Shown here piece by piece: positions 46,095-53,043 of a stretch of DNA of 64,000 bases (position 1 is the first letter of the stretch; each line of letters opens with the position of its first letter). Source of the DNA: Gelidibacter sediminis (GTDB taxonomy: Bacteria; Bacteroidota; Bacteroidia; Flavobacteriales; Flavobacteriaceae); the NCBI RefSeq assembly GCF_004364975.1, contig NZ_SOBW01000007.1, positions 124,001 to 188,000 of the forward strand. Reading direction: 5' to 3'. The translations under genes and the position numbers were made by a program. The notes beneath the pieces are model-generated. The model had not been told where the DNA came from. It saw only the letters and a program-made list of their open reading frames with translations, and ran no database searches.

Positions 46095-46172
46095 TTTTTG
46101 GTTTTTAGTTGGTTAGTATTCAAAGAAACCATAAATATTTAACAAAATCAAAACATTTTTAAGTACTGTCAC

Positions 46173-46205
46173 TTTGTCACAATCATTAAATTAATCTTAT
46201 CTTTG
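46173..46205 (+). promoter_or_regulatory. Promoter of the miaB-rightward group
   Basis: TTTG (46173-46176), a 21-base spacer and TATCTTTG (46198-46205), in line with the flavobacterial consensus. Predicted start at about 46212, about 50 bases before miaB. Confidence 0.75.
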
Positions 46206-46259: not shown

Positions 46260-47705
46260 ATGGAGAAAATTATTGACGAAAGCAAACAAGGAGAATCTCT
46301 AGTACTCGAACCTAAAAATGGTAACACCCGAAAACTTTTTATAGAAAGTTATGGCTGCTCCATGAACTTTAGTGACAGTGAAATTGTGGCGTCCATTCTT
46401 CTTAAAAACGGCTATAATACCACTCAAAGCCTGGATGAGGCAGATTTGGTATTGGTAAACACCTGCTCTATTCGGGATAAAGCTGAACAAACTGTTCGTA
46501 AAAGACTTGAAAAATATAACGCCGTTAAGCGCATCAATCCAAAGATGAAGGTTGGGGTACTAGGCTGTATGGCTGAACGTTTAAAAAGCAAATTTTTAGA
46601 AGAAGAAAAAATTGTAGATCTTGTTGTTGGTCCTGACGCTTACAAAGACCTTCCTAATTTATTGGCAGAAGTTGAAGAAGGGCGAGACGCTATTAACGTC
46701 ATCTTGAGCAAAGATGAAACTTATGGCGACATATCTCCAGTGAGACTAAACTCTAACGGCGTATCAGCATTTGTATCCATAACCCGTGGCTGTGATAACA
46801 TGTGTACATTTTGCGTAGTTCCTTTTACGCGTGGACGAGAGCGCAGCCGTGATCCACAAAGTATTTTAGAAGAAGTTAGGGATCTATGGGATAGAGGATT
46901 TAAAGAAATTACACTACTAGGACAAAATGTAGATAGCTACTTGTGGTATGGCGGCGGACTCAAAAAGGATTTTGACAAAGCTAGTGATATTCAAAAGGCC
47001 ACAGCCGTAAATTTTGCCAATTTGCTTGATTTATGTGCTAAGGCGTATCCTAAAATGCGCATCCGTTTTTCAACCTCCAATCCTCAGGATTTAACTTTGG
47101 ATGTGATTGAAACAATGGCAAAGCACAAAAACATTTGTGACCATATCCATTTACCTGTGCAAAGTGGCAGCAACAGAATTCTTAAGGAAATGAATCGTCT
47201 ACACACACGTGAGGAATATTTTGAACTTATAGACAATATCAGACGCATCTTACCAAACTGCTCCATCTCTCAAGACATGATTGCAGGTTTCCCAACTGAA
47301 ACGGAAGAAGACCATCAGGATACCTTAAGTTTAATGGAGTATGTAAAATATAATTTCGGATATATGTTTACCTATTCAGAACGTCCGGGAACTTTAGCTG
47401 AACGAAAAATGGAAGATGATGTTCCTGAAGCGATTAAAAAAAGACGATTGGATGACATTGTTCAATTACAAAGACAGCATAGCGAATACAGGACGAAAGC
47501 ATTTTTAAACACAACAGTAGAGGTGTTGATTGAACGGGAATCGAAAAAATCGAATCAAGAATGGTCAGGAAGAACTTCTCAAAATGTAGTGGCCGTATTC
47601 CCAAAAGCACAGTACCAAATTGGCGACTTGGTAAATGTTAACATTACAGATTGTACAAGCGCTACTTTAATTGGAGAAGCTATTGGTTATGCGATGAATG
47701 ACTAA
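46260..47705 (+). CDS. miaB: tRNA-2-methylthio-N6-dimethylallyladenosine synthase
   Basis: Radical-SAM enzyme that adds a methylthio group to i6A37 of tRNA. 481 residues: an N-terminal methylthiotransferase domain with cluster Cys (Cys33 in [35 protein letters not shown]), radical-SAM Cys178, Cys182, Cys185 ([10 protein letters not shown]) and a C-terminal TRAM domain (about 405-475). The specific match is MiaB rather than RimO ([20 protein letters not shown] region). First gene of the miaB-EBP-lptE-TPR-secG run. Confidence 0.95.
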
Positions 47706-47763: not shown

Positions 47764-49032
47764 ATGGAATCAATTCAAGCCATAAAACAACGTTTCGGAA
47801 TTATTGGGAATGACCCCAAACTCAACCGATCTATAGAAAAAGCCATCCAAGTTGCCCCAACAGACATTTCAGTGTTGGTTACTGGAGAAAGTGGTGTTGG
47901 TAAGGAAAGCATTCCAAAAATTATACACCAATTGTCGCATCGCAAACACGGAAAATACATAGCGGTAAACTGTGGTGCAATTCCAGAAGGTACTATTGAC
48001 AGCGAACTTTTTGGTCATGAAAAAGGCGCGTTTACCGGAGCCACCCAAACCCGTGAAGGTTATTTTGAAGTAGCTGATGGCGGTACTATCTTCCTTGATG
48101 AAGTTGGTGAGTTGCCATTAACTACCCAGGTACGTTTACTACGTGTGCTGGAAAATGGCGAGTTTATTAAGGTAGGATCCAGTAAAGTTCAAAAAACAAA
48201 TGTGCGTATTGTAGCGGCTACTAACGTGAACATGTTTGAAGCCATTAAAAAAGAAAAATTTAGAGAAGATCTTTATTATAGGCTTAGCACAATTGAGATC
48301 CACCTTCCTCCATTACGCGAACGGAAAGAGGATATCCATTTATTGTTCCGAAAGTTTGCTAGTGATTTTGCACTTAAATACAAGATGCCAACGATAAAAC
48401 TAACAGAAGAAGCAGTTGAGGTGCTTTTAAAAAATAGATGGAATGGAAACATCAGACAATTGCGCAATGCTGCTGAACAAATCTCCGTTTTAGAACAAAC
48501 CCGGACTATTAATGCGGCGACTTTAAAGGAATATTTACCCAATTATGAGGATAATCTCCCAGCGGTCATAAAAAATTCGAAGAGCGAAAGCGATTTTAGC
48601 AGTGAGCGCGAGATACTTTATAAAGTGCTATTTGATATGAAAGGCGATTTAAATGATCTGAAAAAATTGACCATGGAACTGATGAAAAGTGGCACTACTC
48701 ATGATGTTCAGAAAAAGAATGAAGGTTTGATTCAAAAAATTTATGGTGATGAAGATGACGAAGAAAACTACGAAGATACTATTGAAGATTTGGAAGTGCT
48801 ATCCATTCCAGAAAAAATGAATCAACTGTCAGAAGCTATTGATGAATCCAATGATAAGTATTATTTTGCGGAAGAAGTTGAAGAGGAAGAAACCTTATCA
48901 CTTCATGACAAAGAATTGGAATTGATTAAAAAATCATTAGAACGTCATCAAGGGAAACGCAAACTGGCAGCTGCTGAATTGGGCATTAGCGAGCGTACAT
49001 TATATAGAAAAATTAAGCAATACGATTTATAA
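47764..49032 (+). CDS. Sigma-54-dependent transcriptional activator without a receiver domain
   Basis: 422 residues: an AAA+ sigma-54 interaction domain right at the N terminus (Walker A GESGVGKE 41-48; GAFTGA 88-93; Walker B GGTIFLDE 106-113; arginine fingers FREDLYYRLS), an unusual acidic linker (about 270-380, with DEDDEENYEDTIEDLE), and a C-terminal Fis-type helix-turn-helix (383-422, GKRKLAAAELGISERTLYRK). There is no N-terminal sensor domain, so the signal is unknown. It should activate RpoN promoters; a good candidate lies before groES, 2 kb downstream. It is in the miaB-lptE run; this order is widely conserved in flavobacteria (from memory). Confidence 0.93.
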   Translation: MESIQAIKQRFGIIGNDPKLNRSIEKAIQVAPTDISVLVTGESGVGKESIPKIIHQLSHRKHGKYIAVNCGAIPEGTIDSELFGHEKGAFTGATQTREGYFEVADGGTIFLDEVGELPLTTQVRLLRVLENGEFIKVGSSKVQKTNVRIVAATNVNMFEAIKKEKFREDLYYRLSTIEIHLPPLRERKEDIHLLFRKFASDFALKYKMPTIKLTEEAVEVLLKNRWNGNIRQLRNAAEQISVLEQTRTINAATLKEYLPNYEDNLPAVIKNSKSESDFSSEREILYKVLFDMKGDLNDLKKLTMELMKSGTTHDVQKKNEGLIQKIYGDEDDEENYEDTIEDLEVLSIPEKMNQLSEAIDESNDKYYFAEEVEEEETLSLHDKELELIKKSLERHQGKRKLAAAELGISERTLYRKIKQYDL

Positions 49033-49056: not shown

Positions 49057-49563
49057 ATGAAGTATTTTAAAATTTCAGCTCTTTTGTTTAGCCTCAGCGT
49101 ATTGACTGGCTGTGGCAATTACGGTTTTACAGGAATTTCATTACCGGCAGGCACGACAACATATCAGGTTAATTATTTTCAAAACGACGCCCCCTTGGTC
49201 GAACCAGGTTTGGAACGCACATTTACGAACGCGCTTGCTGATTTAATTCAAAATCAAACCAGTTTACAACTAGTAACTTCTGGTGGTGATATTACTTATG
49301 AAGGCGAGATAACAGAATATCGTATATCGCCAACTACAGCTACGGCTGACATTACCGCCGCACAAAATAGGCTGACCATAGGGGTACGGGTTCGGTTTTA
49401 CGATAAAAACAATCCAGATGGAGACGTCAATCAAACTTTTTCATTCTTTTATGATTATCCGGGCAATGTACAGTTGGTGGGCGCCCAAAAAGATGCTGCA
49501 ATTTCTGAAATACTAGAACGAATAACTCAAGACATTTTAAATGCTACTTTAGGCAAATGGTAA
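49057..49563 (+). CDS. lptE: LptE family LPS-assembly lipoprotein
   Basis: 168 residues, signal peptide with lipobox (LSVLTGC, Cys19). Conserved LptE-like features: a short NYGFTG after the Cys, TYQVNYFQNDA, PGLERTFTNALADLIQ and a terminal ITQDILNATLGKW. LptE plugs the LptD barrel and helps insert lipopolysaccharide into the outer membrane. It starts 24 bases after the sigma-54 activator gene and ends 9 bases before the TPR gene, so it is co-transcribed. Confidence 0.88.
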   Translation: MKYFKISALLFSLSVLTGCGNYGFTGISLPAGTTTYQVNYFQNDAPLVEPGLERTFTNALADLIQNQTSLQLVTSGGDITYEGEITEYRISPTTATADITAAQNRLTIGVRVRFYDKNNPDGDVNQTFSFFYDYPGNVQLVGAQKDAAISEILERITQDILNATLGKW

Positions 49564-49572
49564 TTTTATAAC

Positions 49573-50511
49573 GTGAACACACAAGATTTTACATATCTAC
49601 TTAGTCATCCAGAAGAATTGAGCGCAGTACATACCTCCAATGTTGGAGACATTGTTACGAAGTATCCTTATTTTCAGGCCGCTAGAGCTTTACATCTAAA
49701 AGGTTTAAAAACAAAGGAGAGTGCTCAGTATAATCAGGAGTTGCGAAAAACCGCGGCCTACACGACGGATCGAAGTATTTTATTTGATTTTATTACCTCT
49801 GAAGCGTTCAACCAAAATGAAATCTCCAAACTTATAAAGCAAAATACTGAGCTTTTAAAAAGCATAGATGTTAAGGATGCGGAAGATATAACGGTTAACA
49901 AAAGTGTTACCTTAGATGATGCTTTAAGCAAACAAGTTATAGAGAGCGCAGGGGTTTTAGATCCAAATTTATTTGAAGAAAAACCTGGTTTTGCTTCAAC
50001 ATCCAAGCAGCCCATTATAGATGTGGATGTTAAAAATATCGAGCCCTCACCTGAAGAACAGTTAAACATTGGAAAACCCTTGCAATTTGATAAGAATGAA
50101 ACCCATTCGTTTACGCAATGGTTAAAAATTACAAGTTTTAAGCCTATAACACGGGATGAGGAAGAAGATGAGTTGCCCATTGAAACACCCGAAATAGAGC
50201 CCATTACTCCAGCCAAAGCAGAGTCCGCTTTAGATAAAAAGTTGGATTTAATAAATAAATTCATCACCACCAATCCTAAAATTTCTCCTGTTAAAGAATC
50301 TAAGCCTCCACTAAATCTTGCGCAAACACAACTAGTTCAAAATGATAACTTCATGACGGAGACCTTGGCGCGCATTTATTTAGAGCAAAAAAACTATGAA
50401 AAAGCAATTCAATCTTATAAAATTTTAATTTTGAAATATCCAGAAAAAAGTGGTTTCTTTGCAGACCAAATTAAAGCGGTAAAACAAATACAAGCAAATA
50501 ATACCAAATAG
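49573..50511 (+). CDS. Tetratricopeptide-repeat-containing protein, function unknown
   Basis: 312 residues starting at a GTG (MNTQDFTYLLSHPEEL), with no nearer ATG in the conserved frame. An N-terminal helical region, a Pro/Glu-rich middle (DEEEDELPIETPEIEPITP) and a C-terminal TPR unit (LARIYLEQKNYEKAIQSYKILILKYPEKS). No signal peptide, so cytoplasmic. It lies between lptE and secG with gaps of 9 and 3 bases; translational coupling with secG is likely. The link to LPS or Sec is inferred only from position. Confidence 0.8.
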   Translation: MNTQDFTYLLSHPEELSAVHTSNVGDIVTKYPYFQAARALHLKGLKTKESAQYNQELRKTAAYTTDRSILFDFITSEAFNQNEISKLIKQNTELLKSIDVKDAEDITVNKSVTLDDALSKQVIESAGVLDPNLFEEKPGFASTSKQPIIDVDVKNIEPSPEEQLNIGKPLQFDKNETHSFTQWLKITSFKPITRDEEEDELPIETPEIEPITPAKAESALDKKLDLINKFITTNPKISPVKESKPPLNLAQTQLVQNDNFMTETLARIYLEQKNYEKAIQSYKILILKYPEKSGFFADQIKAVKQIQANNTK

Positions 50512-50514
50512 CAC

Positions 50515-50871
50515 ATGAGTACATTTACAATATTTCTAGTCTTAATCATCATTGTATCATTTCTCTTGGTGGTTGTCATAATGGTCCAAAATCCAAAAGG
50601 AGGCGGTTTGTCTTCATCATTTGGAGGTGGCGGCTCTCAGCAATTAGGAGGCGTTAAAAAAACAACTGACTTTTTAGATAAGAGTACTTGGATTTTAGCA
50701 ACTGTATTGTTAGCGTTAATTTTGGTCTCCAATGTCGCAATTGATGGAGCAACAGGAACTACTGAATCCAAAGCCTTAGATACTGATGCAGCCACTAGCA
50801 TGCCTGCTCCTGCTAGTCCTTCAACTCCTGCCGTTAATACCCCTACAACACCTATTGATACTACAAATTAA
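50515..50871 (+). CDS. secG: Preprotein translocase subunit SecG
   Basis: 118 residues, with two membrane segments (TIFLVLIIIVSFLLVVVIM and WILATVLLALILVSNVAI) joined by the Gly/Ser loop QNPKGGGLSSSFGGGGSQQLGG typical of SecG, and a Thr/Pro/Ala-rich tail (about 85-118). Last gene of its run, followed by a terminator. Confidence 0.92.
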   Translation: MSTFTIFLVLIIIVSFLLVVVIMVQNPKGGGLSSSFGGGGSQQLGGVKKTTDFLDKSTWILATVLLALILVSNVAIDGATGTTESKALDTDAATSMPAPASPSTPAVNTPTTPIDTTN

Positions 50872-50897
50872 TTAAAGTAGTACGTTTTATATATTTT

Positions 50898-50929
50898 AAA
50901 ATGCCAACAAATTTTGTTGGCATTTTTTT
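50898..50929 (+). terminator. Terminator after secG
   Basis: Stem AAATGCCAACAAA / TTTGTTGGCATTT followed by a seven-T run; 27 bases after the secG stop. It isolates groESL from the upstream run. Confidence 0.92.
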
Positions 50930-50959
50930 GTTACTGAAACTTTGTCAGTTCACCGCCCA

Positions 50960-50975
50960 TGGCACATTTTTCGCA
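50960..50975 (+). promoter_or_regulatory. Candidate sigma-54 (RpoN) promoter of groESL
   Basis: TGGCAC-ATTTT-TCGCA, compared with the RpoN consensus TGGCAC-N5-TTGCA: one mismatch, and the invariant GG and GC lie exactly ten bases apart. Predicted start near 50986, 59 bases before groES. No TAnnTTTG box is seen between the secG terminator and groES, and no CIRCE-type repeat. Confidence 0.65.
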
Positions 50976-51044
50976 ACTACGTAATCCATTAAACAAAATT
51001 AATTAACCATTCACGCGTGGCGTGACTAAAACAACAATAAAACT

Positions 51045-51320
51045 ATGGGATTAAACATTAAACCATTGGCAGACCGTGTTCTTATTGAACCTGTAGAAGC
51101 TGAAACAAAAACAGCTTCAGGAATTATTATTCCGGACAACGCAAAAGAAAAACCTCAAAAAGGTAAAGTTGTTGCCGTTGGTGCTGGAACTAAAAAAAAT
51201 CCAATTACTGTAAAGGTTGGTGAAACCGTTCTTTACGGAAAATATGCAGGAACTGAATTGAAACTTGAAGGCAAAGATTATTTAATCATGCGTGAAAGTG
51301 ATGTTCTAGCAATCATCTAA
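51045..51320 (+). CDS. groES: Co-chaperonin GroES
   Basis: 91-residue lid of the GroEL folding chamber. Conserved mobile loop [19 protein letters not shown] (about 19-37), the GKVVAVGAG turn and the [22 protein letters not shown] core are present. Starts with [13 protein letters not shown]. It precedes groEL by 94 bases in the usual order; a possible sigma-54 promoter lies upstream. Confidence 0.97.

Positions 51321-51402: not shown

Positions 51403-53043
<1,641 letters not shown>

Follow-up and report, generated by a model that had tools for sequence, protein, structure and literature searches.

The groESL and dnaK operons are usually under the control of HrcA/CIRCE or sigma-32, and a sigma-54-type route to heat-shock control is represented by HsfA of Myxococcus xanthus, an NtrC-like activator that is a two-component response regulator. 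In Flavobacterium psychrophilum, mapped transcription starts carry a sigma-54 motif (SM4) before groES-groEL, lon, dnaK, grpE-dnaJ, htpG, and clpB, and five of these genes fall into one expression cluster (PMC9723704). Its authors suggest that different clusters answer to different activators, and the available text of that paper names neither an activator nor an upstream site for these genes (PMC9723704). Sigma-54 promoters have also been predicted to be enriched at GroEL, GroES, GrpE, DnaJ, and DnaK in Bacteroidota, with the highest enrichment in Flavobacteriia; the portion of that study available to us gives no activator, enhancer, or symbiont analysis (PMC12316311). For flavobacteria, groESL has thus already been published as being under sigma-54, once as a mapped start (PMC9723704) and once as a prediction (PMC12316311), as far as the accessible text of both goes. 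In flavobacterial insect symbionts, the retention of RpoN has been called unusual and tied to nitrogen in the part of the source that was available (PMC3971599).

We analyzed a 64,000-nucleotide stretch of Gelidibacter sediminis DNA (the window) that contains groESL. The F. psychrophilum locus resembles it in having −24/−12 starts before chaperone genes and a homologous activator gene at the same locus, and differs in that an SM5 promoter precedes activator-lptE there, whereas a putative sigma-A promoter covered by a candidate activator site precedes miaB here (PMC9723704, available text). The phage-shock system offers another likeness: PspF of E. coli combines an AAA+ domain with an HTH in the absence of a sensory domain, serves stress genes under sigma-54, and represses its own expression, according to the accessible part of the source (PMC3709507). 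The target genes are different, and the activator described here has a long linker and scores 270.2 bits against the NCBIfam PspF model (TIGR02974), below its cut-off of 443.55. We propose, from sequence comparisons, that a PspF-like enhancer-binding protein runs the chaperone regulon from enhancers lying unusually close to their promoters. The open-access literature that we searched names neither such a site, nor the activator that owns it, nor a link to the symbionts.

Promoter Upstream of groESL

A −24/−12 sigma-54 promoter box, TGGCACATTTTTCGCA, was read in the sequence at 50960–50975 (+); ten bases separate its GG from its GC. It lies 85 bp 5′ of the groES start codon, between the secG terminator (a hairpin and T run at 50901–50929, +) and groES (51045–51320, +; Pfam Cpn10), which is the placement given in a preliminary description of this DNA; groEL follows at 51415–53043 (+; Pfam Cpn60_TCP1), and secG (50515–50871, +; Pfam) is the final gene upstream of groES. 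Reading of the interval 50872–51044 also bore out the reported absence of a TAnnTTTG box and of a CIRCE half-site. A sigma-54 box, with no CIRCE half-site in that interval, sets the locus apart from the HrcA/CIRCE and sigma-32 systems, with which it shares the control of groESL.

Taken by itself, the 16-mer carried little information. With up to one mismatch allowed, the window contains three matches (1.06 expected), a count reached in 9 of 100 shuffles; with up to two allowed, it contains 17 (17.6 expected). We therefore rejected the match as stand-alone evidence, as it is at chance level in the window; the box rises above chance because it is conserved in relatives and not because of the window match itself. 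A simple genome scan with TGGCAYNNTTTNNG was likewise rejected as a description of the regulon: it returned 24 matches, most of them within open frames, and the reversed control returned 16.

Conservation was assessed in two sets of related sequences, which share ancestry and are not independent samples. In the first, groES upstream regions were read in the window's genome and in 38 relatives, 39 genomes in all. A box of the form TGG(C/T)A(C/T)-N7-G, or GG-N10-G, was present no more than 115 bp from groES in 38 of the 39; the sole exception was G023, which had no groES box. The GG and the −12 G were invariant in 36/36 boxes, a count that leaves aside one box containing an N (G011) and any relative whose upstream region has no box under the TGGCA-Y rule, and the following C was kept in 21 of the 36. 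The earlier expectation that relatives would keep GG-N10-GC thus held for GG and G and only in part for C. The second set was gathered separately by scanning with the activator protein, and 80 named Bacteroidota loci were kept. A simple pattern recognized groES within the flank in 42 of these (the other 38 are not evidence of absence), and every one of the 42 had the box; 60 dinucleotide shuffles averaged 0.8 such loci and never exceeded 3. One relative, G024, has a second groES-like gene (contig C65, locus L039) with no sigma-54 box or site upstream, which was excluded from the counts.

The sigma-54 reading depends on rpoN, which is present in the genome (PF04552, E 1.3e-51) and in 39/39 relatives. 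Overall, the earlier proposal that RpoN controls groESL is supported by the conservation of GG-N10-G, by the joint loss of box and rpoN in insect symbionts described below, and by the published F. psychrophilum start, as given in the available text (PMC9723704).

Activator Gene and Its Neighborhood

The orphan sigma-54 activator gene mentioned in the preliminary description was located at 47764–49032 (+), 2.0 kb upstream of groES. By Pfam, its product is a sigma-54 enhancer-binding protein composed of an AAA+ region (residues 13–180; PF00158, E 9.9e-68) with the motifs GESGVGKE, FLDEVGEL, and GAFTGA, a lid (185–261), a linker, and a C-terminal Fis-type HTH (383–420; PF02954). No N-terminal sensory domain is present: Pfam gave no receiver match and the AAA+ region begins at residue 13, so the protein does not class as an NtrC-type response regulator. 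It resembles HsfA as a sigma-54-type activator tied, by our proposal, to heat shock, and differs from it in having no receiver domain. Across 30 aligned rows (G043 being entered twice), the loop reads GA/SFTGA and the HTH segment LGISERTLYRKI is identical. An AlphaFold model of the protein had a mean pLDDT of 53.7 and a pTM of 0.38, too poor for a fold search, with the C-terminal helices at a pLDDT of 73–86 and most of the linker below 50.

The operon opens with a miaB-type radical SAM gene (46260–47705, +; Pfam). Downstream of the activator gene are lptE (49057–49563, +; Pfam) and a hypothetical gene whose weak match to TPR falls under the Pfam cut-off (49573–50511, +), followed by secG. An ortholog of the activator was found in 39/39 relatives, adjoining groES in 32 and not in the remaining 7. 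The window's genome encodes four PF00158-type proteins besides the activator (five in total), and the assignment of this activator to groESL consequently depends on the symbiont data and the putative autoregulatory site. A second PF00158-type protein of ~390 aa (G000:C1:68835-69548), encoded ~6 kb from grpE, did not match the window's activator in the HTH and also occurs in several related genomes.

Putative Activator Site and Its Spacing

The groES upstream regions of symbionts contain a palindrome 5′ of the box, most often ATGTCATAATGACAT, and comparison across genomes reduced it to TGNCA-N3-TGNCA. At groES in the window, the proposed site is CTGAAACTTTGTCAG (50934–50948, +), which is imperfect, with one mismatch (TGAAA), and stands 25 bp start-to-start from the box. 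Within the named set, 29 of the 42 groES upstream regions carried the site (shuffles: mean 0.03, maximum 1). The perfect form was found at groES in only 13/39 relatives, and 15 others, the window's genome included, had a one-mismatch form, TG(A/T)AA-N3-TGTCA, exactly 25 bp from the box. Many relatives also have a perfect activator site (e.g., TGACAAGCTGGCA) inside the secG terminator hairpin, such that the terminator and a putative enhancer share bases.

The distances between site and box were phased. In the named set they were 35, 45–48, 55–57, 66–67, and 75 bp (n = 29, R 0.86 at 10.5 bp; 0/20000 simulations), and with distinct values alone R was 0.78 (0/20000 simulations). The other set gave 36, 45–47, 55–57, 78, and 89 bp (n = 14, R 0.85), with a single value for G038 and G044, which belong to one genus (G044 was dropped). 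Two spacings of 59 bp in the symbiont genus g39 fall off the helical beat. Because any period between 9 and 12 bp outdid all simulations of the named set, the distances are best read, for these related genomes, as steps of about one helical turn with no exact period assigned.

A perfect site, CTGTCACTTTGTCAC (46166–46180, +; core 46167–46179), was also present upstream of the miaB-activator operon. Starting 31 bp after the site start is a sigma-A −7 box, TATCTTTG (46198–46205, +), and the −33 element, placed by its known spacing to the −7 box, is covered by the site. Of the 73 named loci whose sequence extends 2.8 kb or more upstream of the activator gene, 51 have an equivalent site, and in 47 of these 51 a TAnnTTTG followed at +29 to +33 (chance about 0.0006 per interval). 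Since the site lies over the −33 element, binding there should exclude sigma-A polymerase, which suggests autorepression by the activator. We regard this placement as the best sequence evidence that the activator reads TGNCA-N3-TGNCA.

Proposed Chaperone Regulon

Further members of the proposed regulon were sought in 12 genomes as a site, 12 bp, and a box, with at most one mismatch. This search, which covers a spacing of 25 bp alone and could therefore miss other members, gave 51 matches, compared with 4 for the reversed pattern. The window's genome accounted for six of them: perfect matches at grpE, htpG, and dnaK, and matches with one mismatch at groES and two other positions. The spacing between site and box is 25 bp at all four chaperone loci of this genome. 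Among 38 free-living relatives, the grpE upstream region had the box in 36, the site in 29, and both in 27, and in 26 of these 27 the two were exactly 25 bp apart. These results support one shared upstream site as the predicted link between groES, grpE, dnaK, htpG, and the operon that encodes the activator, which both sustains and extends the earlier hint that the neighboring orphan activator matters.

Elsewhere in the genome (G000:C2:174969, locus L116), a sigma-54-like box, TGGCATACTTTTTG, and two TGACA half-sites were observed ~141 bp 5′ of the tmRNA gene, with a TAnnTTTG box between the sigma-54-like box and that gene.

Reduced Insect Symbionts

We also examined 61 reduced genomes (0.26–0.64 Mb) of insect symbionts, all from the family of G038. 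rpoN was present in 48 and missing from 13, the latter belonging to three genera. The activator followed rpoN throughout, the two being jointly present in 48/61 and jointly absent in 13/61; at the genus level, six had both and three had neither (Fisher p 0.012). Each of the 48 rpoN-positive genomes had exactly one PF00158 match below E 1e-60, and in 48/48 the gene lay on the groES strand, 722–2337 bp upstream of groES. No activator ortholog was found by the same threshold in the 13 rpoN-negative genomes, with one strong PF00158 match, in G041, set aside because it was judged by eye to be on a 19.6-kb phage-like contig. That contig (C1; loci L098 and L372) carries a 281-aa frame for an NtrC-like AAA+ protein beside ligase-like and helicase-like frames.

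The promoter elements followed the same pattern. The groES box was no more than 115 bp from the gene in 45/48 rpoN-positive symbionts and 199 bp away in G094, and it was lost in G039 and G043, both of which retain the grpE module; every one of the 48 has thus kept the groES box or the grpE module. In the rpoN-negative symbionts, box or site was seen in 0/11 groES and 0/11 grpE upstream regions read. A strict box pattern, TTGGCAYNNNTTTNGC, was found in 41/42 genomes of genus g39, once in each and twice in G070, for 42 matches against 14 with the reversed control. On the complete 630-kb contig of G047, the groES box was the top score genome-wide (20.0 bits; the next, at 16.1, was inside a gene), and there were only three perfect sites, one each upstream of groES, of grpE-dnaJ, and of the miaB-activator operon. 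The groES box of G038 ranked second, behind a box-like sequence inside a gene, and the sites of that genome were upstream of groES, upstream of grpE, and within a gene. These patterns suggest chaperone control, instead of nitrogen, as the role of RpoN in the symbionts, and the chaperone circuit may be what sigma-54 is kept for in these organisms.

Discussion

Based on the conservation, co-occurrence, spacing, and genome-wide specificity of these elements, we consider it probable that the locus encodes a single circuit, comprising a sigma-54 box at groESL, the neighboring activator working through TGNCA-N3-TGNCA, self-repression of that activator, and the retention of rpoN in symbionts. Protein–DNA binding, activation, autorepression, and feedback are the predicted parts. 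Sigma-54 RNA polymerase would transcribe groESL from the box at 50960–50975, and the AAA+ protein encoded at 47764–49032 is the most likely activator. It would bind TGNCA-N3-TGNCA near the promoter, on a fixed face of the helix, and open the promoter by ATP hydrolysis. The activator would also bind over the −33 element at the sigma-A promoter that serves miaB-activator-lptE-secG and thereby limit its own amount. The circuit would then provide heat-shock (chaperone) control in place of HrcA/CIRCE or sigma-32. As the activator lacks a sensory domain, we expect a partner that acts in trans; our guess is free chaperone, acting as negative feedback. In insect symbionts, the circuit appears to be reduced to groESL and grpE-dnaJ, which is probably the reason for rpoN retention.

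Other readings of these data were considered. Transcription of groESL could depend on sigma-54 and yet be activated by a different PF00158-type protein, with the neighboring activator serving something else. The window's genome has five such proteins to choose from, among them the one of ~390 aa near grpE that had no HTH match, and the authors of the F. psychrophilum study leave the activator of the chaperone promoters open in the available text (PMC9723704). However, the rpoN-positive symbionts kept box and site with the neighboring activator as their only strong PF00158 match, and TGNCA-N3-TGNCA also marks that activator's own operon; we regard activation by another protein as improbable.

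TGNCA-N3-TGNCA might instead be the operator of a separate repressor of the chaperone genes and the miaB operon. Its overlap with the sigma-A −33 region at the miaB operon is an operator position. Textbook enhancers lie much farther from the promoter than 25 bp, and the site at that distance would be a poor likeness of them. Such an operator would still have to be reconciled with phasing to the sigma-54 box over several turns, which suits contact with the holoenzyme, with the joint absence of site, rpoN, and activator in the symbionts read, and with the invariant HTH of the aligned activators. We judge a separate repressor to be quite unlikely. That the groES box is a sigma-A or ECF promoter, conserved and resembling sigma-54 sites, as the C of the −12 GC in only 21/36 boxes and the TAnnTTTG-like letters inside some of them could imply, is very hard to credit given the GG and G in 36/36 boxes, the equally good fit of the grpE and dnaK boxes, the loss of the box together with rpoN, and the sigma-54 motif assigned to the published starts of these chaperone genes in the accessible text (PMC9723704).

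Returning to the circuit proposed here, its broader form would be that heat shock in Bacteroidota is run by a dedicated, self-repressing sigma-54 activator from an enhancer in near contact with the holoenzyme, placed roughly at −51 to −39 or farther upstream by full helical turns, and that a one-activator regulon of groESL and grpE-dnaJ, not nitrogen control, preserves rpoN in the symbionts, with activator, sites, and boxes lost together in the lineages that lost rpoN. We think this generalization somewhat more probable than its opposite. If true, a major bacterial phylum would have a heat-shock regulator of its own, and the published but ownerless sigma-54 chaperone promoters would gain a named activator. 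There would also be enhancers whose closeness to a sigma-54 promoter seems to rule out looping of the DNA. Finally, the circuit would explain why flavobacterial insect symbionts retain RpoN, which was noted as odd in the available part of an earlier report (PMC3971599).
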